A stretch of 21,851 bases of DNA from a virus. The notes under the pieces were generated by a model. That model was not told the origin of the DNA and did not search any database. It saw only the letters and a list, made by a program, of their open reading frames with translations. Below are positions 1 through 10,226 of this stretch, in pieces; the first letter of the stretch is position 1; each line of letters opens with the position of its first letter. The stretch spans positions 1-21,851 of IMG/VR virus record IMGVR_UViG_3300013005_002249. One strand, given 5' to 3'. The position numbers were made by a program, and so were the translations under genes.

Positions 1-1
1 C

Positions 2-634
2 CCAGTCCTCAATCGCTATGACCTACTTCAGAGGATGCTCAACAGCGTGGATGTCCCAGTCGAACACCTGCTCATAATTGACAACGGAGCAAGCCACCAG
101 CCAAAGCTCATCCTTGACATTGGCGATAACTTCAAGAAGGTTACACACCTACCAATGCCGGCTAATCTCGGAGTCTCTGGATCGTGGAACTTGGGGATAA
201 AGTCCTTCCCTTACGCTCAACGCTGGTTCATAGTTTCTAACGATGTGGTCTTTGAGCCTGGTGCTTTAGAGAAACTCTCACAGGCTCGCAGGGATGAGAT
301 AACCCTCACAGGCGATGCACCCCATTGGCAAGCTTTCGTTTTGGGTGATGAGGCTGTCAGTGATCTAGGGCTGTTCGATGAGTGTGGATTCTTTCCTGCC
401 TACTTTGAGGACAACGACTACATGAGGCGAGCAGACTTCGCTGGTGTAAATGTTCGCAGGGTTGACATCGAGCTAAGCCATGACAACAGCTCAACCATCA
501 AGGCTGGCTATGAAAACAAGAACGCCAAGACCTTCTTTGCTAACCAGAAACTACATGAGGCTAAGATAGCCAATAACGATTACAGTGCTGGTGTTTACTC
601 ATTAGACATAAGACGAGAGAACGGCTGGGAATGA
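2..634 (+). CDS. GT-A type glycosyltransferase, 5' end cut by the window edge
   Basis: Likely a GT2-like glycosyltransferase. The frame is open to the first bases of the window, and the residues before the ATG at 35 (NRYDLLQRMLNSVD) read like the normal family N-terminus, so the true start is probably outside the window. Counting from that ATG, visible features are IDNG (15-18), the NLGVSGSWNLG segment typical of GT-A folds (44-54), SND (68-70, a DXD-like position) and an acidic EDND (125-128) followed by a conserved-looking His (149). About 200 residues is short but normal for phage GT2-like enzymes. It overlaps the next gene by 4 bp (ATGA). Its place beside a cytidylyltransferase and upstream of neck genes suggests modification of a virion protein or synthesis of an activated sugar or polyol. 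The substrate cannot be read from the sequence. Confidence 0.82.
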   Translation, partial: PVLNRYDLLQRMLNSVDVPVEHLLIIDNGASHQPKLILDIGDNFKKVTHLPMPANLGVSGSWNLGIKSFPYAQRWFIVSNDVVFEPGALEKLSQARRDEITLTGDAPHWQAFVLGDEAVSDLGLFDECGFFPAYFEDNDYMRRADFAGVNVRRVDIELSHDNSSTIKAGYENKNAKTFFANQKLHEAKIANNDYSAGVYSLDIRRENGWE

Positions 635-1053
635 ACTTAGTTTACACAGGTGGGACTTTCGATTTATTCCACGCAGGTCATGTTAGATTCTTGCAACGCT
701 GTGCTGAGTTAGGCGATGTGGTTGTTTCCCTAAACACCGATGAGTTTATTCAGGAATACAAGGGCAAGCCACCAGTCCTAAGCTTCAGCGACAGGCGTGA
801 GGTGCTTAGATCGTGTCGCTATGTTGCCGAGGTCATAACCAACTCAGGTGGGCCAGATAGCACTCAAGCAATAAATAGTGTGATGCCTGACATAATTGCA
901 ATAGGCTCGGATTGGGCTGTCAAGGATTACCACAAGCAGATGAACTTTGACCAAGATTGGTTAGACGATAGAGGCATTGCCCTTATCTACATTCCTTACA
1001 CCAGGGGAATAAGCTCAACAGCCATCAAAGAGCGTATGCTTTTTAGAAGATAG
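631..1053 (+). CDS. Cytidylyltransferase, TagD/glycerol-3-phosphate cytidylyltransferase-like
   Basis: A 140-residue nucleotidyltransferase of the HxGH superfamily. It has the N-terminal GGTFDLFHAGH signature (HAGH at 14-17) and the C-terminal ISST motif (127-130) that together bind the CTP or ATP phosphates. Length matches TagD-like enzymes, about 130 residues, which make CDP-glycerol from glycerol-3-phosphate and CTP. Adenylyl-transferring relatives such as the HldE C-terminal domain share these motifs, so the nucleotide is not certain. The start overlaps the glycosyltransferase stop as ATGA, implying coupled expression. The pair probably makes and transfers an activated sugar or polyol, perhaps onto capsid or tail proteins. 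That role is inference. Confidence 0.85.
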   Translation: MNLVYTGGTFDLFHAGHVRFLQRCAELGDVVVSLNTDEFIQEYKGKPPVLSFSDRREVLRSCRYVAEVITNSGGPDSTQAINSVMPDIIAIGSDWAVKDYHKQMNFDQDWLDDRGIALIYIPYTRGISSTAIKERMLFRR

Positions 1054-2496: not shown

Positions 2497-2757
2497 ATGC
2501 AAATCCCTTTCAAAGTTGAGTTTGTAGATGGTTCTAAAGAATCAGTTGTATGTGGCACACCGGACTTTATCGCTTTCGAGGATAAGTTCAACCTTGCTGT
2601 AACAACAATTCAAAAAGACCCACGCCTGACTTACCTTGCCTACATTGTTTGGAACGCCCTACGCCGCAGAAAGCAAACTGACAAGAGCTTTGAGGACTTT
2701 GTTGACACCCTTGAAAACATCGAGGGTGACGATACAGACCCAAAAGTAAAGGCATAA
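2497..2757 (+). CDS. Tail-assembly chaperone, short form (gpG-like)
   Basis: An 86-residue acidic protein (FKVEFVDG, then a helical region and an Asp/Glu-rich end) lying between the tail tube gene and the tape measure gene, where lambda gpG and its analogues are found. These proteins coat the tape measure protein during tail assembly and are absent from the virion. The C-terminal codons contain a CCCAAAA heptamer at 2739-2745 in the correct register for -1 slippage, and the -1 frame stays open for 56 further codons. That is the classic G/GT arrangement and strongly supports the function despite little sequence conservation. The upstream ribosome binding site is weak, so coupling to the tube gene is likely. 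Confidence 0.8.
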   Translation: MQIPFKVEFVDGSKESVVCGTPDFIAFEDKFNLAVTTIQKDPRLTYLAYIVWNALRRRKQTDKSFEDFVDTLENIEGDDTDPKVKA

Positions 2758-2915
2758 AGGGGCTGGGAGAAAAAAGCTCCCACCTCTTTATAGCAGCCTT
2801 AGCTTGTGAAACAGGGATTGCACCATCGGTGCTGATGCAGGAATCCGAACGGATGCTGTTTACCATGCAGATGTATCTGAAGGGTAAAGCAGAGTCCATG
2901 AACAAGCGTAGGTAG
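2497..2915 (+). CDS. Tail-assembly chaperone, -1 frameshift form (gpGT-like)
   Basis: Predicted fusion made when ribosomes slip at 2739-2745. The first 83 residues are those of the short form. Reading then continues in the -1 frame from 2745 to the TAG at 2913-2915, adding 56 residues for 139 in total. The extension contains a helical stretch (ACETGIAPSVLMQESERMLF) and a Lys/Arg-rich C-terminus, as expected of a T domain that recruits tail tube subunits. Without frameshifting, 2758-2918 would be an unexplained 160-nt gap in a tightly packed operon. The slip frequency cannot be read from the sequence; in lambda it is a few per cent. Confidence 0.78.
2739..2782 (+). promoter_or_regulatory. Programmed -1 frameshift signal: CCCAAAA slippery site plus downstream hairpin
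   Basis: The zero-frame codons are GAC CCA AAA, so C CCA AAA fits the X XXY YYZ rule at 2739-2745. Slippage re-pairs the two tRNAs on CCC and AAA. A stem of TGGGAG (2764-2769) with CTCCCA (2777-2782) and a 7-nt A-rich loop starts 18 nt after the heptamer. This is further than the usual 5-9 nt, so the hairpin may contribute only weakly. The zero-frame stop TAA is at 2755-2757, inside the spacer. Confidence 0.75.
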
Positions 2916-2918
2916 AAA

Positions 2919-3482
2919 ATGAAAGTACAACACTCAATAGAGGTCTATGGCGTTAGGGAAACCCTTGCCGAGATCCGCAATGTTGACAAGGATTTATTCT
3001 TTGCTATCCGAGCGCACATGAAGCGTACAGGTGACATCTTAGGTAGCAGGGTGTTAGCCAATTCACCCATGCTCGGCCCAACCAGCGGATTCAGAAACCA
3101 TAAAGGTAGAACAGCTTGGAAGCCAGGCAACTTCAAGACTGTCGTTTCTGGTCGCAACGCTCGTAGAGGTGTAACAGGTGCAACACCTTTGCTATCTGTC
3201 AAGTTCGGTGGAGCTGCTCTAAACATCGCTGACATGGCTGGTAAGGCTAACAAAGTTCGCAAGCCAGTAACAGAGTTTTATGACTGGCGTGGCACACGCA
3301 GACGGCACTCGGTTACAACTCAGGGTGCAAACATGATTAAGGCTTTAGGTGGCAGACCATCTCGCTACATCTGGGCTGAGGCCGAAGGTCAGTTGCCAAT
3401 GATCCAGCAAAGCGTTCTAGCTGGTGTCGAGGAATACATGGCAAAAGTAAACCGCAACCTGAAAATTGAGGGTGGTAAGTAA
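2919..3482 (+). CDS. HK97 gp10-like / minor structural tail protein
   Basis: A 187-residue basic protein. The N-terminal 55 residues (EVYGVRETLAEIRNVDKDLFF followed by a helix ending in ANSP) look like the start of HK97 gp10-type proteins, which form part of the neck or tail terminus. The rest is Arg/Gly-rich with no recognisable motif. The location is unusual for gp10, which more often precedes the tail tube; here it sits between the chaperone and the tape measure genes. A separate minor tail protein is therefore a real alternative. The start has a GTAGGTAG-type site close upstream, and the stop overlaps the tape measure ATG by one base (TAATG). Confidence 0.5.
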   Translation: MKVQHSIEVYGVRETLAEIRNVDKDLFFAIRAHMKRTGDILGSRVLANSPMLGPTSGFRNHKGRTAWKPGNFKTVVSGRNARRGVTGATPLLSVKFGGAALNIADMAGKANKVRKPVTEFYDWRGTRRRHSVTTQGANMIKALGGRPSRYIWAEAEGQLPMIQQSVLAGVEEYMAKVNRNLKIEGGK

Positions 3483-4972
3483 TGTCAATTAACATCAACA
3501 TCCTCAGCAACTTCAATGGCACAGGGTTTGACAAGCTAACTAGGGAACTAGACAGACTCAATACCCCGATGGAAAAGGTCGCTGCTGTATCTCGTAGCCT
3601 TGCACCTGCCGCAATCATTGGTCTAACCGCACTAAGTGGTATGGCTGTCGGTGCTTTGAGAGCAGCAGAGGAAGCCGAGGTTGCAAACAACAGACTTGAC
3701 AGCGTTGCTAGGTCTATGGGCTTGTTTGGCGATAACACCAAAGCTGTGACCGATAGGCTCAAGGCTTTCGCAACAGAAACAATGAACAAGATTGCTGTTG
3801 ACGATGAGCTGATTCTTTCCACTCAAGCACAGTTGCTTAGCTTCAAGGAGCTAGCAGCTACCGCCGATGTTGCTGGTGGCTCATTCGACAGAGCAACACA
3901 ATCAGCCTTTGACATGGCAGCAGTATTGGGTGGCACAGGTGAGGACAACGCCATCCGACTTGGTAAGGCTTTGCAAGATCCCATCCTTGGTCTAACAGCT
4001 TTACGCCGAGCCGGTGTTCTATTTAGCGATGAACAAGAAGCAAGTATCAAAACCTTTGTGGCTGTTGGAGATACTCTAAGCGCACAAAACATGATCCTTG
4101 ACGAACTTGAAACACAGTTTGGTGGAGCTGCTGAAGCTACCGCAACTGACTCAGCAAGAATGAGTGTTGCCTTTGGAGAAGTCGCAGAGTCTTTGGGTAA
4201 AGCCTTGCTTCCTATTCTGCAAGTTGTCACGCCAGCTATTGTTGCCTTTTTTAGTTATGTCGGTCAAAACTCAGGTATCTTTACAGCCCTAACAGCTATC
4301 TTGGCTGGACTTGCTGTTGCTATCTTGGCTGTGAACTTTGCGCTAAACGCTAACCCAATTGTCAAGATAATCACTCTTATCGCCTTGCTTTTAGGTGCGT
4401 TGATATTACTAGCTGATTACCTTGTAAATACCTTTGTTGGTAGCTGGGGAGATTTCTTTAGCCTTGTCGGTAAATTGTGGGATGATTTTGTGACCGCTAT
4501 TGCTGTTGGCATTATTGCTATCGCAGGATTCTTTGGCTCTGTATTTGATGGACTTGCTGGAATTGTCAAGGGTGCCTTGAACGCAGTCATTGGGATTATC
4601 GAGGGCTACATCAACACAGTCATCGGTGGAGTCAACAAGCTACTTGACCTAATCAACACAGTTCTAAAGGCTGGAACAGTAATCGGCATAGATTTCCAGA
4701 TAGGAAAGATTGGCAAGGTTGCTATTCCTAGACTTGCCGAGGGCGGAATCGTAATGCCCCGACCAGGTGGAGTGCTTGCCAACATCGGTGAGGGTGGTCA
4801 GGCTGAGGCCGTTATTCCTCTTGACCGACTAGGTGACTTTACTGGCAAGGGTGGCAACACTTACAATATAAATGTTTCAGGTGGAATGGCTACTGGATCG
4901 GACATAGGTAGAGCAGTAGTAAACGCCATCAAGGACTTTGAGCGTCAATCAGGTACGGCTTGGAGAGGCTAA
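3482..4972 (+). CDS. Tape measure protein
   Basis: A 496-residue protein in the position after the tail-assembly chaperone. An N-terminal helical region (LTRELDRLNTPMEKVAAVSRSL) is followed by a hydrophobic Ala/Gly-rich segment (about 38-62), a long helical section, then several strongly hydrophobic stretches (about 235-320 and 335-355). A Gly/Ile-rich tail contains the RLAEGGIVMPRPGGVLANIGEGG segment commonly seen near the C-terminus of actinophage tape measure proteins. Such proteins fix tail length and are injected through the membrane. At about 0.15 nm per residue the tail would be roughly 70-75 nm, which is short; this is an estimate from a general rule. Minus-strand frames over this gene are shadows. 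Confidence 0.88.
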   Translation: MSININILSNFNGTGFDKLTRELDRLNTPMEKVAAVSRSLAPAAIIGLTALSGMAVGALRAAEEAEVANNRLDSVARSMGLFGDNTKAVTDRLKAFATETMNKIAVDDELILSTQAQLLSFKELAATADVAGGSFDRATQSAFDMAAVLGGTGEDNAIRLGKALQDPILGLTALRRAGVLFSDEQEASIKTFVAVGDTLSAQNMILDELETQFGGAAEATATDSARMSVAFGEVAESLGKALLPILQVVTPAIVAFFSYVGQNSGIFTALTAILAGLAVAILAVNFALNANPIVKIITLIALLLGALILLADYLVNTFVGSWGDFFSLVGKLWDDFVTAIAVGIIAIAGFFGSVFDGLAGIVKGALNAVIGIIEGYINTVIGGVNKLLDLINTVLKAGTVIGIDFQIGKIGKVAIPRLAEGGIVMPRPGGVLANIGEGGQAEAVIPLDRLGDFTGKGGNTYNINVSGGMATGSDIGRAVVNAIKDFERQSGTAWRG

Positions 4973-6154
4973 GTGTCAATCAAAGTAGAGTTTGGATTCG
5001 CTGAGTCTGGCGTACCTGTCAACTTCAATGACATCAGCGCAGATGTTATTAGCGTATCTGTCACTAGAGGTAAAGACCCACAGCAGGATACCTTCAATGC
5101 TGCCTCTTGCTCTATTCAGCTAAACAACGAACGCAGACAGTATGACCCTGACTACGGCCCTAGCCCTTATCAGGGTTTGATTGTTCCAACTGGTGAGGTA
5201 AGGGTTTACAAAGAGAACCAGATTGTCTTTACCGGCTTTATTACTGACTGGAACTTTAGCTATTCCCCAACAGGTGAGTCCATAGCTGAGATTGTTGCCG
5301 CTGATGCTTTCTGGAATCTAAACAATCAAACCCTTGCTGCTTACACTCCAACCGAACAACTCAGTAGCGCACGAATCTTAAATGTGTTGCTAAAGCCTGA
5401 AGTTGGTGGCACAGCAGTTTGGCCTACTAGCTCTCGTCTTATCTCTCCTGGTGTGGCAACTATGGGTGACTATGAAGTTACCGATGGAACTAACGCTCTC
5501 AGTTATTTACAAGAGGTTGAAAAGGCAGAACCAGGCAGACTCTTCATTGACAAGTCAGGTCGCATAGTATTCCGAAGCCGTAACAACGATGTCAACAACC
5601 CAACCTATGAATACACAAGGGTCAACCTTTGCTACAACCCTAGCTTTGAGAACAACACAACTGGTTGGATTTCTACCGCTGGCACAATTACTAGATCAAC
5701 AGCTCAGGCTTACATTGGCACAGCAAGTGGAGAACTAGCCGCTGGTGCTACTGCTGAGCAATACTTTACAAGTGAAGTTGGTGTGGAATACAACCTATCT
5801 CTTTACGCCAAGGCAAGCTCTGGGACTGTTGTGGTCGAGGTAGCAAGCCTTACCTCACCCAGCGGAACTGCCTACTCACAATACTCAGCTTCAACAGCAT
5901 CGGTTACTGACTCGGAGTGGACAAGAATAAACACCAACCTAAGTGCCACAACCTTATTCTCTGGTATGAGTATCAGGCAGACACCATCATCAAACGCTGT
6001 ATTCCTTGACGCTATCTTGATTGAGGCAACGCCTGTTGTGGATGCTTACTTTGACGGAGCTAACGATCCTGTTTACAACTCGACTGACCCTGAAGCACCT
6101 GACTATCAACCACAGCGAGCGTTCGAGTCTTACGATACTGAGTGGGTGTTATAG
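4973..6154 (+). CDS. Baseplate hub / minor tail protein, N-terminal half, with carbohydrate-binding-like module
   Basis: A 393-residue protein starting at GTG directly after the tape measure stop. Residues 1-212 are a distal-tail/hub-type beta domain (DVISVSVTRGKD, GFITDWNFSY, then SYLQEVEKAEPGRLFIDKSGRIVFRSR). Residues about 216-360 are a CBM4/9-like beta-sandwich, recognisable from YNPSFENNTTGW at the start and AYFDGAND at the end. The normal continuation of the hub fold after FRSR is missing here and appears at the end of the next ORF. That ORF lies in the same frame and is separated only by TAG (6152-6154) and TCA. The protein therefore looks like the first part of a split hub. The CBM-like module would bind host surface glycans; this is inference. 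Confidence 0.72.
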   Translation: MSIKVEFGFAESGVPVNFNDISADVISVSVTRGKDPQQDTFNAASCSIQLNNERRQYDPDYGPSPYQGLIVPTGEVRVYKENQIVFTGFITDWNFSYSPTGESIAEIVAADAFWNLNNQTLAAYTPTEQLSSARILNVLLKPEVGGTAVWPTSSRLISPGVATMGDYEVTDGTNALSYLQEVEKAEPGRLFIDKSGRIVFRSRNNDVNNPTYEYTRVNLCYNPSFENNTTGWISTAGTITRSTAQAYIGTASGELAAGATAEQYFTSEVGVEYNLSLYAKASSGTVVVEVASLTSPSGTAYSQYSASTASVTDSEWTRINTNLSATTLFSGMSIRQTPSSNAVFLDAILIEATPVVDAYFDGANDPVYNSTDPEAPDYQPQRAFESYDTEWVL

Positions 6155-6157
6155 TCA

Positions 6158-7564
6158 ATGCCTAGTTATAGTAATGGTGCTGTCAGAGTTACTGACCCTT
6201 TCTTTGGTTTTAGACCCCCTTACAACATTGCTCAACTTATTACTATGCCCGACATTTCTGGCAGAGATGCACCTGGTAAGACTGGAGCTTCTGCCAAGCC
6301 AGGTTTAGTATCAGCTCTTTACTTGGAGCTAACGGCTTACAACAGCTCGAACGCCACAACCAAGTTTGTCATGTGGTCAGGTGGTGGAACAAATGGTGTT
6401 TTTACAAGCGCTTTTACATTGCCCAACTCTCAGACCCCCTACCAAGTCGGTGCAGCTCTTACAAGACCTATTTTTGCTGGAACAGATTATTGGATTGGTT
6501 TTACAAAAGAAACTTCTGCTCAGGTAACTTGGTCGGTTGATACAAGCTTTACCCCCTCAATCAAGCAAGACCGCACCGCACCAAACGCTAACTTTACTGA
6601 CAACGGACTTGTATCTGGCGTTACTAATGGTTCCTTTGTATTTGAGATTGTCTATGACCTTTTACCTATTGCGCCAGGCACCCCAACTGCCAGCTCAACT
6701 GGAACTAGTGCAACCATTACTTGGACAGCACCTGCCGACAATGGTGGTCAAGCTGTTACCAGTTACAGAATCCAACGCTCAACAGACAACATTAACTTCA
6801 GCACAATCGTTGCCAGCACCGGCACTACTTCTCTTACCTACACCAACACAGGTCTAACACCAGGAACTAAGTATTACTACCGAGTTGCTGCTATCAACTC
6901 TGTGGCTGTGGCTCATGGTACGGATTACTCTGGCCCTTACAGCGCATCGGTTGAGATTACCCCAGCTTTCCCTGCCTCTGCTGGTAACGCACCATCTTTG
7001 CTAACTGTTACAGTTACCAACCCTGAGCCAACCCCAGTCGAGTTTACAGACGCTGGTACAGGTATTCGGTTCACCAAGATAGATGTTTCTTATGGATCAG
7101 AGTTTCTTTACAACGAGGTTGAGGGAACTACCCAAGACCCTTTGAGTGAGATACAGATTGCCTCAGCGCCAGGTTCGAAGCAACTCTATGGCGTGAGAAG
7201 CTACTCGATTACTAACCTGCTGAACTCGACTGACCAAGGTGCATTAGATGTGGCAGTTGACCTCTTGACTTACTACTATGAGCCGACTCTTAGGGTTGAC
7301 TCTATTACTGTTGACCTCAGCAACCTAAGCCTTGAGGAACGAATCTTGGTGCTAGACCTAGAGATTGACGATTACATCAGCGTCAGCTTTACCCCTAACA
7401 AGGTTGGAGATCCAAAGATTACTGCTGGTCTAATTACAGGTATTTCGCACCGTATAACCATCACCAGCCATGAGATAGAATTTAGACTTAGGAACGAACG
7501 CAATATGTTTATTCTGGACAGCGAAACCAAGGGTATCCTCAACCAGAACATACTAGGCCCATAG
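6158..7564 (+). CDS. Baseplate hub / minor tail protein, C-terminal half, with jelly-roll-like and fibronectin III modules
   Basis: A 468-residue protein in the same frame as the preceding ORF, with its ATG 3 nt after that stop. Residues about 5-168 form a Ser/Thr-rich beta domain of unknown family. Residues about 171-270 are a fibronectin type III domain (APGTPTAS, TITWTAPADNGG, SYRIQRSTD, TPGTKYYYRVAAIN). Residues about 290-468 (EFTDAGTGIRFTKIDVSYGSEFLYNEV through a Thr/Ile-rich end with HRITITSHEIEFRLRNE) match the second half of actinophage hub proteins, which normally follows FRSR-type sequence without a break. The upstream ribosome binding site is poor (GAGTGGG), so re-initiation after the TAG is likely unless readthrough occurs. 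Function: central tail hub with adsorption modules. Confidence 0.72.
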   Translation: MPSYSNGAVRVTDPFFGFRPPYNIAQLITMPDISGRDAPGKTGASAKPGLVSALYLELTAYNSSNATTKFVMWSGGGTNGVFTSAFTLPNSQTPYQVGAALTRPIFAGTDYWIGFTKETSAQVTWSVDTSFTPSIKQDRTAPNANFTDNGLVSGVTNGSFVFEIVYDLLPIAPGTPTASSTGTSATITWTAPADNGGQAVTSYRIQRSTDNINFSTIVASTGTTSLTYTNTGLTPGTKYYYRVAAINSVAVAHGTDYSGPYSASVEITPAFPASAGNAPSLLTVTVTNPEPTPVEFTDAGTGIRFTKIDVSYGSEFLYNEVEGTTQDPLSEIQIASAPGSKQLYGVRSYSITNLLNSTDQGALDVAVDLLTYYYEPTLRVDSITVDLSNLSLEERILVLDLEIDDYISVSFTPNKVGDPKITAGLITGISHRITITSHEIEFRLRNERNMFILDSETKGILNQNILGP

Positions 7565-7574
7565 TAAGGAAACC

Positions 7575-7964
7575 ATGCCAAGAAAAGTATTTGAGTCTTT
7601 CACAAGACTAGATGCCGCAGATGTGAACCTCTATCTGTCTAACGAAACAACCCTGACAGCTTCTACTGTTACGGCCTACACAGCTACAACAGATGATCGC
7701 TACAAGTTTCTTTCCTTTACTGCTGGCTCGGCTGTGACTGTCACAATCGGAACGGCTACTGCCTTTGAGCCTGGTGAGCGTGTAGACATCATCCGAGATG
7801 GTGCTGGAACTGTCACCATCACTCGAAGCGGAACTGCCATCACCCTTGCTGGTCGAGGAACGGCTGGAACTGCTTATGCAATCGGTACTCGCTATGACGC
7901 TGTGACTGTATTGTGTGTTGACACAAACTCTTATCGAGTTATCGGTAACGCAACGGTTCTCTAA
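7575..7964 (+). CDS. Minor tail / tail-tip protein of unknown family
   Basis: A 129-residue protein with a good AGGAAA site before its ATG. The N-terminus (RKVFESFTRLDAADVNLYL) is a helix resembling the attachment segment at the start of many tail-tip and fibre proteins. The rest is a Thr/Ala/Gly-rich beta domain with regularly spaced strands (AVTVTIGTAT, GERVDIIRDGAGTVTITRSG, YRVIGNATVL), a pattern seen in small trimeric fibre or baseplate upper proteins. It lies between the hub and the glycine-rich gene and overlaps the latter by one base. The specific role is not known; a structural role in the tail tip is inferred from position and composition. Confidence 0.6.
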   Translation: MPRKVFESFTRLDAADVNLYLSNETTLTASTVTAYTATTDDRYKFLSFTAGSAVTVTIGTATAFEPGERVDIIRDGAGTVTITRSGTAITLAGRGTAGTAYAIGTRYDAVTVLCVDTNSYRVIGNATVL

Positions 7965-8860
7965 TGGGACTGATACCTTTAGGGATTTTGAGTTCTGCCG
8001 CCACTCAGTTACTTATTGAATACCTAGTTATCGCCGGTGGTGGTGGAGCTGGTACTGGAAACAATGTGAACTCCCCTGGTGGTGGAGGTGGTGCTGGCGG
8101 TTATCGTTCATCTGTCTTGACAGAAAATTCTGGTGGTGGAGCAGGTGCAGAATCTATCCTGAGCTTGTTGCCATTTACTAACTACACAGTTACAGTCGGT
8201 GCTGGCGGTGCGGCTGGTGCGGCTGCTGCAAACGCTAGTGGTACAAGCGGAAGTAATAGCGTATTTTCAACCATTACTTCAAATGGTGGTGGAGGTGGAG
8301 GTGGACATTTAAAGACTCCCCCAACTGGAGGTGGTAGCGGTGGTGGTGGCCCATCTGTTGCACCAGGTGACGCTTCGGCTGGTGTCGGTGCAACTGGTAC
8401 AGCTAATCAAGGTTCCAATGGAGGTAATGGATTCTTTACTTTAGGAAGTCGTGCATCTGGTGGTGGTGGTGGTTCTTCCGCTAATGGAGCTACAGCAACA
8501 TCAACTGTTGGTGGAAATGGTGGATCGGGACAGGCTTCTACAATTACAGGCTCATCAGTATCAAGAGCTGGCGGTGGTGGTGGTGCTGGCTCAACAACTA
8601 GAGGAACTGGTGGAACTGGGGGTGGAGGTCAAGGTGGAAACCCAAGCAACGCGGGTGTAGCTGGTACTACAAACTCTGGTGGTGGAGGTGGTGGTGGTTG
8701 GAACGCTGGTGGTGCTGGTGGTTCTGGTATCGTGATTATCCGATATCCCTCTAACTTTACAATCACAATCGGTGCTGGCCTGACAGGTTCAACTTCAGTA
8801 GTGGGAAATAATAAAATAACATCGTTTACTGCCGGAACAGGGAATGTGAGTTTTGTATAA
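7964..8860 (+). CDS. Glycine-rich tail tip / adhesin protein
   Basis: A 298-residue protein. About 200 residues are dominated by runs of four to seven Gly with intervening Ala, Ser and Asn. They are framed by the EYLVIAGGGGAG entry and the GGSGIVIIRYPS exit, which together mark the glycine-rich domain found in many phage tail proteins. Polyglycine-helix packing of such stretches is known from T-even adhesin gp38, where loops between the helices recognise receptors. A short beta tail (FTITIGAGLTG to GNVSFV) follows. The GGT/GGA-rich DNA resembles a tandem repeat but is coding. It overlaps the previous stop by one base and abuts the next start. Probable receptor-binding role; the receptor is unknown. 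Confidence 0.7.
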   Translation: MGLIPLGILSSAATQLLIEYLVIAGGGGAGTGNNVNSPGGGGGAGGYRSSVLTENSGGGAGAESILSLLPFTNYTVTVGAGGAAGAAAANASGTSGSNSVFSTITSNGGGGGGGHLKTPPTGGGSGGGGPSVAPGDASAGVGATGTANQGSNGGNGFFTLGSRASGGGGGSSANGATATSTVGGNGGSGQASTITGSSVSRAGGGGGAGSTTRGTGGTGGGGQGGNPSNAGVAGTTNSGGGGGGGWNAGGAGGSGIVIIRYPSNFTITIGAGLTGSTSVVGNNKITSFTAGTGNVSFV

Positions 8861-9223: not shown

Positions 9224-9468
9224 TGTCTGAGGAAACTACTTCAGTTCGGATTACTCAAGCCGACATCTACAAGAAGCAACTAGAGCATGGACAAATTCTT
9301 ATCCAGGTGTTGCAGAAACTAGATCACCTTGACGATGTGCCGGAAAGAATCAGAGAAGTAGAACTCACCCTTGCCAGACTTGCTTGGATTGAGCGAGTAG
9401 CTTACACAGGGCTAACAGCAGCAGTTGTAGCCATCATCGGATTACTAATGACCACGATAGGAAAATAA
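9223..9468 (+). CDS. XhlA-like membrane-anchored lysis accessory protein
   Basis: An 81-residue protein with a soluble N-terminal part (residues 1-50, heptad-like helix QILIQVLQKLDHLDDVPERIREVELTLARL) and one C-terminal transmembrane helix (about 58-78). This coiled-coil-plus-anchor layout is that of haemolysin XhlA-type proteins, which help holins in lysis, and of short membrane proteins encoded beside phage lysins. It overlaps its neighbours on both sides by one base (TAATG at each), so it is translated with the tail tip and endolysin genes. An alternative role is as one of two holin components together with the two-helix protein at 10399. Confidence 0.6.
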   Translation: MSEETTSVRITQADIYKKQLEHGQILIQVLQKLDHLDDVPERIREVELTLARLAWIERVAYTGLTAAVVAIIGLLMTTIGK

Positions 9469-10226
9469 TGAGCTGGTATCCAAAGGTTGCAGGAATACAA
9501 GACAACGGATTCGGTGGCTCTCGTAATGGGCAAGCCATCAACGGAGTAGTCATTCATCATGTGGCAGGAACCAACGGACTCAACTATGTTGCTAACAAGA
9601 ACCCACGCAACTCTCACCCGACCTATCACATTTCCAACTCAGGTGCAGTAACAGGAATCGTAAACCCTGAGCGCAGACCTTACTCAACAGGTGGACAGCC
9701 TGATCCTAGTGCTGTGACCTTCGAGATTGACAACTCATCTGTCGGTGGAGATTGGCCTGTGTCATCTGCCGCGATCGAGGCTTTGATTGATGTAATTGTC
9801 TTTCATGCCAGCATCTCTCCAAGAGCTAACCGAGGCTTTGCTAAGAACATCAAGACTCAGGTACAGCGTGAGTTCTACATTGCTTGGCATCAGCAGTATT
9901 CAGCAACAGCTTGTCCTGGCCCGTTTGTAATGTCACAGCTTGACTACATCGTTGCCGAGTGCAACAAGAGAGCATCTCAAGCAGTCGCACCAGTCGCACC
10001 GGTTATTCCAACACCACCACCAGCCAGCAACAAGCCAAGGCTATTTAGGTTCTTGAAGCGTGGATCAACAGGCTCTAATGTCAAGTACCTTCAGAGCGTT
10101 CTAGGTATCAAGGCTGACGGCATCTTTGGCCCAATCACCGATGCCAGAGTCAGGCAGTTCCAGCGTGAGCAGGGCATCAGGGTAGATGGCGTTGTTGGCT
10201 GGGTTACTTGGGGCAGACTCCCATAG
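9468..10226 (+). CDS. Endolysin: N-acetylmuramoyl-L-alanine amidase with peptidoglycan-binding domain
   Basis: A 252-residue lysin. Residues about 20-155 form an Amidase_2/PGRP domain: GVVIHHVAG (His30/31), HPTYHISNSG (His50, His54), then WHQQYSATACPG (His141, Cys149). His30 or 31, His141 and Cys149 are the expected zinc ligands. A Pro/Ala-rich linker (about 162-180) leads to a C-terminal PG_binding_1 domain (about 184-252) with LKRGSTGSNVKYLQ, GIKADGIFGPIT and GVVGWVTW. It cleaves the amide between MurNAc and L-Ala in host peptidoglycan. There is no signal peptide, so release needs a holin, and a holin gene follows. The downstream gap of 172 bp is the largest in the late region. Confidence 0.93.
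   Translation: MSWYPKVAGIQDNGFGGSRNGQAINGVVIHHVAGTNGLNYVANKNPRNSHPTYHISNSGAVTGIVNPERRPYSTGGQPDPSAVTFEIDNSSVGGDWPVSSAAIEALIDVIVFHASISPRANRGFAKNIKTQVQREFYIAWHQQYSATACPGPFVMSQLDYIVAECNKRASQAVAPVAPVIPTPPPASNKPRLFRFLKRGSTGSNVKYLQSVLGIKADGIFGPITDARVRQFQREQGIRVDGVVGWVTWGRLP

Follow-up and report, generated by a model that had tools for sequence, protein, structure and literature searches.

Can the core fold of a phage tail hub be divided between two separately translated chains? The hub occupies the middle of the tail tip and controls the exit of DNA, and in the solved structures matched in this work, from T4 to the mycobacteriophages, its core fold is one chain. The question is raised by a 21,851-nt stretch of DNA from an uncultured phage (IMGVR_UViG_3300013005_002249, positions 1-21,851; this whole stretch, a fragment of a genome, is hereafter called the window), in which two open reading frames (ORFs), A and B, follow each other in one frame with TAG TCA as their sole separator (Table 1). 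A hypothetical read-through product would have 863 residues. A preliminary description of the locus, which had the coordinates, the frame and the separator exactly right, saw in the pair one hub split by inserted modules and offered three explanations: two chains made by termination and restart, read-through of the TAG, or a nonsense mutation or sequence error. Our analysis makes it very probable that A and B are translated separately, as two chains, and jointly build one gp27-type tail hub.

ORFs A and B match the two halves of single-chain hubs

The closest cultured relative is phiPsal1, a phage of Pontimonas, for which reason the host of the window may, at a guess, be an actinobacterium. 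Its protein phiPsal1_019 (annotated as 'putative tail fiber', MG835450) belongs to the same hub family, is homologous to both ORFs and lies right behind the tape measure gene, the position expected of this family and the one that A occupies in the window. Residues 33-215 align with residues 16-205 of A at 39% identity and residues 224-394 with residues 294-467 of B at 34%. Unlike the pair in the window, phiPsal1_019 is one chain of 395 aa that lacks the inserted modules, with 8 residues between the stretches matching A and B. Judged by this alignment, the hub of the window is opened between the residues equivalent to phiPsal1 215 and 224, the gap being filled by a CBM4/9 module, the stop and start, a beta domain and an Fn3 domain, which bears out the proposed splitting by inserted modules.

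The hub-like part of A reaches to about residue 205-212, in agreement with the boundary near residue 212 suggested earlier, and is followed at residues 218-326 by CBM_4_9 (Pfam PF02018, 32.2 bits, cut-off 25.9); in the relative L078 this family scores 24.4 bits, just below its cut-off. Residues 215-354 of the structural model described below resemble CBM structures (8xmz_A, Z 16.6, root-mean-square deviation (rmsd) 2.2, 134 aligned). An Fn3 domain occupies residues 173-249 of B (PF00041, 44.1 bits, cut-off 25). Taken by themselves, the first 181 residues of B have no Pfam match at E<=0.1, and all 37 loci found with this beta domain sit on contigs already known as split hubs, as matched by contig name.

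Relatives were gathered from viral contigs with A, B, the alignments of the halves and the N-terminal module of B, the best 80 loci being kept per large search. Profiles of the N-half and the C-half were then run on 288 loci, 14 others having been excluded beforehand. Both halves were found in 261 loci (140 single-chain, 121 split) and the remaining 27 were partial. When identical or contained DNA was removed, 137 distinct loci with both halves were left, comprising 111 single-chain hubs without an insert and 26 split hubs with one. The spacing between the halves is 5-23 aa in the single-chain hubs (median 8) and the equivalent of 463-705 aa in the split ones (median 485), with no intermediate values. 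In a FastTree phylogeny of 131 of the 137 hubs, the 26 split hubs form one group with a support of 1.0, apart from 105 single-chain hubs; on a smaller set, the support of the split group was 0.999, and it was 0.991 with the N-half alone and 0.992 with the C-half alone. The single polypeptide that is usual for gp27-type hubs, without defining them, is thus found neither in the window nor in any of its 26 distinct split relatives.

We take the single chain to be the ancestral state, because the more distant hubs (Mae-JY09, the Streptomyces phages and the structural matches) are single chains. No single-chain hub bearing an insert at this site was found among the loci of three scans with the C-half (the best 80 of 172, the best 80 of at least 587 and the best 80 of at least 583 relatives); intermediates with an insert and no break may exist among other relatives. 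Two scans of a genome collection, seeded by exact short peptide patterns, found no prophage relatives of the N-half or of the C-half of Thermobifida phage P1312 (see below).

As a separate observation, single-chain hubs such as L055, L082 and L090 have an N-terminal 'F.LDD..xG.LD' stretch similar to their own C-terminal end (weak matches to the C-half profile, with independent E-values of 0.06 to 8), and chain A of the split hubs is without it.

The stop and restart are kept among relatives in varied forms

The preliminary description suggested looking for the stop in related phages. In a first set of 31 loci, the end of A is visible in 30, L010 running off the end of its contig. A stop followed by a start of B was present in all 30, in 7 of 7 loci of a second set and in 2 of 2 of a third, in which three more run off the contig, that is, in 39 of 39 loci, and the stop persists in relatives with as little as about 40% hub identity. 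In the window itself one base change would suffice to open the frame, as expected if a one-gene hub had suffered a nonsense mutation or an error of sequencing or assembly. However, the stop occurs in all loci read, in varied forms and frames, and B starts at the same place in relatives and has a Shine-Dalgarno (SD)-like site, so that a mutation or error is refuted for the lineage and its probability for the window is close to nil.

The form of the junction differs from one relative to the next. Among the 30 loci of the first set we counted 11 TAG-codon-ATG junctions (the codon being TCA, CTA, CAG, CCG or CGC), 5 double stops (TAG-TAG or TAG-TAA), 1 TAA-CTT-ATG, 3 TAGTG, 9 TAATG and 1 GTGA; the nine additional loci have 6 TAATG (4 and 2 in the two sets), 2 ATGA and 1 TAAATG. 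Read-through of the TAG, or frameshifting in the relatives, could yield the 863-residue hub as the functional form or as a minor form beside the two chains, and A and B of the window do share one frame, open but for the stop, as do those of 11 of the 26 distinct splits. Yet B lies in another frame in the other 15, two successive in-frame stops are found in 5 of the 30 loci and the codon behind the TAG is not conserved, so that the in-frame stop with a retained context typical of programmed readthrough is absent from the relatives. Nor did any of the 13 out-of-frame loci with an open overlap (4-61 nt) contain the slippery heptamer XXXYYYZ (Y = A or T, Z not G) of a programmed -1 frameshift; for L027 and L028 the frame of the second part of B was scored, and their A-B overlap therefore falls outside this test. 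Recoding of TAG throughout the genome was also considered and rejected: TAG serves as a normal stop in this genome fragment, where it ends the genes at 631-1053, 1067-1666, 1666-2073, 2085-2492 and 9468-10226, among others. Since stop, spacer and frame all vary among relatives, read-through, frameshifting and sequence error cannot be general and B is separately started. We therefore regard a read-through hub as decidedly unlikely, though the phage of the window itself may make a minor read-through product, and the shared frame of A and B in the window as incidental. The split is natural and conserved over the clade, and reflects neither a damaged gene nor general read-through; among the three original explanations, it is termination and restart that the varied junctions support.

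Joining of the chains after translation, for instance by a split intein, would likewise restore a one-chain hub. No intein-type family was detected at the end of A, at the start of B or elsewhere in them in the Pfam scan at E<=0.1, and B has a normal start codon at a constant place, whatever its frame, and leads straight into a conserved domain, which makes such a joining very improbable.

The start of B is preceded, within the last codons of A, by the SD-like sequence GAGTGGGTG (predicted pairing -8.4 kcal/mol). Of the 14 structural-gene starts scored, one alone has a stronger site; a comparison set of 337 other ATGs gave a median of -2.8 and a best tenth of -6.4 kcal/mol.

In L027-L029 the beta domain of B is itself broken: its first 65 residues end in two successive stops in L027 and in four in L028 and L029, a strong SD site (AAGGAAG) and a new ATG come next, and about 200 extra residues then precede the rest of B. 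The hub of these relatives would consist of three chains, if all parts are used.

The two halves are predicted to complete one hub fold

The single-chain relative L120 was modelled with a predicted local distance difference test score (pLDDT) of 85.7 and a predicted template modelling score (pTM) of 0.82. Over its whole length the model resembles gp27-type hubs (9eug_E, Z 23.0, rmsd 3.5, 326 aligned; 1wru, Z 20.2, 3.9, 304; 1k28_D, Z 19.1, 3.8, 300). An AlphaFold model of the read-through product of A and B (pLDDT 83.1, pTM 0.49) matches the hubs of phi812 (9eug_E, Z 24.4, rmsd 3.0, 326 aligned), Mu gp44 (1wru, Z 21.0, 3.5, 302) and T4 gp27 (1k28_D, Z 20.2, 3.5, 310). These alignments reach from residue 1 to about 845 (1..847 for 1k28_D) and thus combine the N-half in A with the C-half in B, which together match most of a known hub. 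Residues 393-409, around the stop, have a pLDDT below 50. The modelling proposed in the preliminary description, carried out here on the fusion form only, therefore places both halves in one hub fold; the model is compatible with one hub and is no proof of assembly.

With the read-through model, the similarity to gp27-type hubs (T4 gp27, Mu gp44, the phi812 hub and the hub of mycobacteriophage Douge) spans Z 16.6-24.4; the Bxb1 hub (9d93_Oa, Z 15.1, rmsd 4.3, 312 aligned) and T5 pb3 (7zqp_b, Z 14.2, rmsd 3.7, 331 aligned) appear only among the matches listed for the single-chain relative. All of these structures are single chains holding both halves, whereas in the window the core fold is spread over two. 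When the single-chain profile was searched against the sequences of solved structures, no match fell below an E-value of 0.38, the hub of a Mu-like prophage (3cdd_A, E 0.62) being among the weak matches.

A further explanation is that A and B are independent tail proteins, the C-half of B being a relic or redeployed and A completing the hub in another way. They are separate genes with their own starts, and phage tail genes often share modules. Against this, the single-chain hub model fits gp27-type hubs across both halves together, conservation is retained in the N-half and in the C-half (mean identities of 0.64 and 0.58) and no second hub was recognised among the scanned structural genes of the window, itself a genome fragment. 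Independence of the two proteins is thus likewise decidedly unlikely.

The hub halves change in step

Pairwise identities were computed for 171 pairs from 19 split genomes and for a closer subset of 91 pairs from 14 genomes. Between the N-half in chain A and the C-half in chain B, these identities correlate at 0.97 over the 171 pairs and at 0.88 over the 91. Over the 171 pairs, the N-half correlates with the CBM of its own chain at 0.74 and with the A tail at 0.93, and the C-half with the beta domain of its own chain at 0.58 and with Fn3 at 0.82. By these identities the two halves change in step, with a clear contrast to modules of the same chain only for the beta domain of B (0.46-0.58). Mean identities are 0.64 for the N-half, 0.62 for the A tail, 0.58 for both Fn3 and the C-half, 0.47 for the CBM and 0.46 for the B beta domain. 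Between L015 (6186-6710) and the window (6158-6667), the B beta domains share an identity of 0.55 and the remaining parts 0.90-0.92, suggesting an exchange of the beta domain alone, starting at the gene border.

Thermobifida phage P1312 carries a hub broken at the homologous place

A weak match led to phage P1312 (KT021004), whose ORF021 corresponds to the N-half and ends just past the strand where the hub part of A finishes. ORF022 starts with a PhoD-like phosphatase (PF09423, 53.1 bits, cut-off 27), contains the C-half from about residue 430 and has a CBM4/9 match below threshold behind it (20.6 bits, cut-off 25.9). The hubs of phiSASD1 and Vondra are strong matches to PHROG 5313; ORF021 accounts for this profile as far as position 794 and ORF022 takes it up at position 792. 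The two genes overlap as ATGA. The arrangement is kept in three metagenomic contigs (about 98% identity); a fourth, distant contig looks single-chain. The hub is thus broken at the place homologous to the break in the window, but with a different added module, the phosphatase at the start of the second chain.

Six Streptomyces phages (Dagobah, Yara, Vondra, phiSASD1, Dubu and Chymera) encode homologous hubs in the gene behind the tape measure gene or in its likely place; unlike those of P1312 and the window, they are single chains that run unbroken from the N-half into the C-half at the P1312 break point. The statement that related actinophage hubs are one protein thus holds for phiPsal1 and these six phages and fails for P1312. 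The Streptomyces hubs align well with the C-half of P1312, which has no more than a marginal match to the family of the window (E 0.086); P1312 thus most simply represents a second, independent break. The P1312 authors noted that both ORFs match phiSASD1 gp38 and read ORF022 as a secreted enzyme (PMC4569894).

The idea that PHROG 5313 represents hubs carrying an insert at this very site was also considered and rejected: the inserts of about 200 residues in the Streptomyces hubs sit earlier in the N-half, within one chain.

A probable two-chain hub and its possible origin

The ancestral hub would have been one chain of about 400 residues. In one phage lineage, a set of modules of 460-500 residues (CBM4/9, a fast-changing beta domain and Fn3) may have entered the loop between the halves of the fold, accompanied by a stop and a new start that lie between modules. 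The ribosome would terminate A and begin B at once on the same mRNA, through its own SD-like site, through termination-reinitiation or through both. Both chains are presumably present in the virion, where the half-hubs would pair one to one and non-covalently, like the halves of a single-chain hub, with the tail channel presumably ringed by three copies of each and the modules remaining outside as putative receptor- or glycan-binding parts.

Several points weigh against a two-chain hub. The presence of A and B in the virion and their mutual binding are deduced from sequence and model, and the P1312 table, in the accessible part of that report, lists no mass-spectrometry coverage for ORF 021 or 022 (PMC4569894). 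The read-through model is a covalent fusion and its alignment includes single-chain hubs, which biases it towards a joined hub; its pTM is only 0.49, and when the whole model is searched with Foldseek, Fn3- and CBM-containing proteins take the top places and the first hub (8v3w_H, E 5.1e-8) comes at rank 12. The correlation of 0.97 between the halves stems partly from shared descent, as the A tail correlates at 0.93 with both, and in the 14 closer genomes the N-half tracks the CBM of its own chain (0.93) better than it tracks the C-half (0.88). Finally, the SD-like sites at B are weak in 5 of the 21 relatives scored (L016, L079, L080, L081 and L140; -2.8 to -4.0 kcal/mol). Stop and start overlap in L016, L079, L080 and L081 and are adjacent in L140, a geometry that fits a coupled restart.

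The breaks in the window and in P1312 lead us to propose, tentatively, that the loop between the hub halves might be a preferred fission site. Large modules, binding domains in the window and a PhoD-like enzyme in P1312, would come in there at the head of a new gene, and the hub would become two-chain with its core fold intact. The second break in L027-L029 would then be the same move made again. Were this so, the chain break would allow tip modules to be swapped by recombination at the gene border, and the halves might move apart when the tail opens.

JBD30, with its hub gp53 and its upper baseplate protein gp50, similarly has a tail-tip core of two proteins where T5 has one; gp50 is, however, a separate partner, and a break within the hub fold is not described in the part of the report accessible to us (PMC11445458). 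In the open-access literature covered by our searches, no listed paper was recognised as describing a hub broken inside its core fold. Conserved over a clade and apparently invented twice, a two-chain hub core shows a route by which large binding or enzymatic modules can be brought into an essential assembly protein. Such hub proteins are filed as 'tail fiber' or 'phosphodiesterase', a warning for annotation, and P1312, a cultured compost phage, makes the two-chain hub directly testable.

Features of the locus and neighbouring genes

Table 1. Coordinates of the hub genes, their parts and associated features (window positions unless another locus is named).
Feature	Position	Strand	Details
Tape measure protein gene	3482..4972	+	Directly upstream of A; PHROG tape-measure families, best 6.9e-20
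ORF A	4973..6154	+	GTG start, 393 aa, TAG stop; hub N-half and CBM4/9-like module
Hub N-half (A residues 1-205)	4973..5587	+	Identity to phiPsal1_019 over A 16-205; N-half profile; hub fold in model
CBM4/9-like beta-sandwich module (A residues 216-355)	5618..6037	+	PF02018 over cut-off; CBM structure matches in model
Shine-Dalgarno-like GAGTGGGTG for B	6140..6148	+	Within last codons of A; -8.4 kcal/mol against the anti-SD
TAG stop of A	6152..6154	+	Stop at the same place in 39/39 relatives read
ORF B	6158..7564	+	ATG start, 468 aa, TAG stop; beta domain, Fn3 and hub C-half
B N-terminal beta domain	6158..6667	+	Seen only on split-hub contigs; among the least conserved parts
Fn3 domain (B residues 173-249)	6674..6904	+	PF00041, E 2.4e-11
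Hub C-half (B residues 294-467)	7037..7558	+	Identity to phiPsal1_019; C-half profile; hub fold in model
Second break of B	L027 1223-3304		Also in L028 and L029; stops, SD AAGGAAG, new ATG

The window had no Rfam match at gathering thresholds. Upstream of the tape measure gene, window 2497-2915 shows a frameshift of the tail assembly chaperone kind, with a slippery CCCAAAA at 2739 in the right phase and a -1 frame open to the TAG at 2913-2915, just ahead of the next gene; we take its chaperone role from the gene order, no family match standing behind it.

At window 35-1053, directly upstream of the head-tail connector gene, lie a gene for a CTP_transf_like nucleotidyltransferase (PF01467) and an ORF without a Pfam match. 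The comparable place in phiPsal1 holds two glycosyltransferase genes and a methyltransferase gene, and the gene content of the two phages hints at sugar decoration of virion parts. Shortly downstream of the hub genes, window 7964-8860 encodes a glycine-rich protein (PF21722 Gly_rich_2, 5e-16; PHROG 2295, 5.4e-44) that is possibly a part of the tail tip or a fibre.

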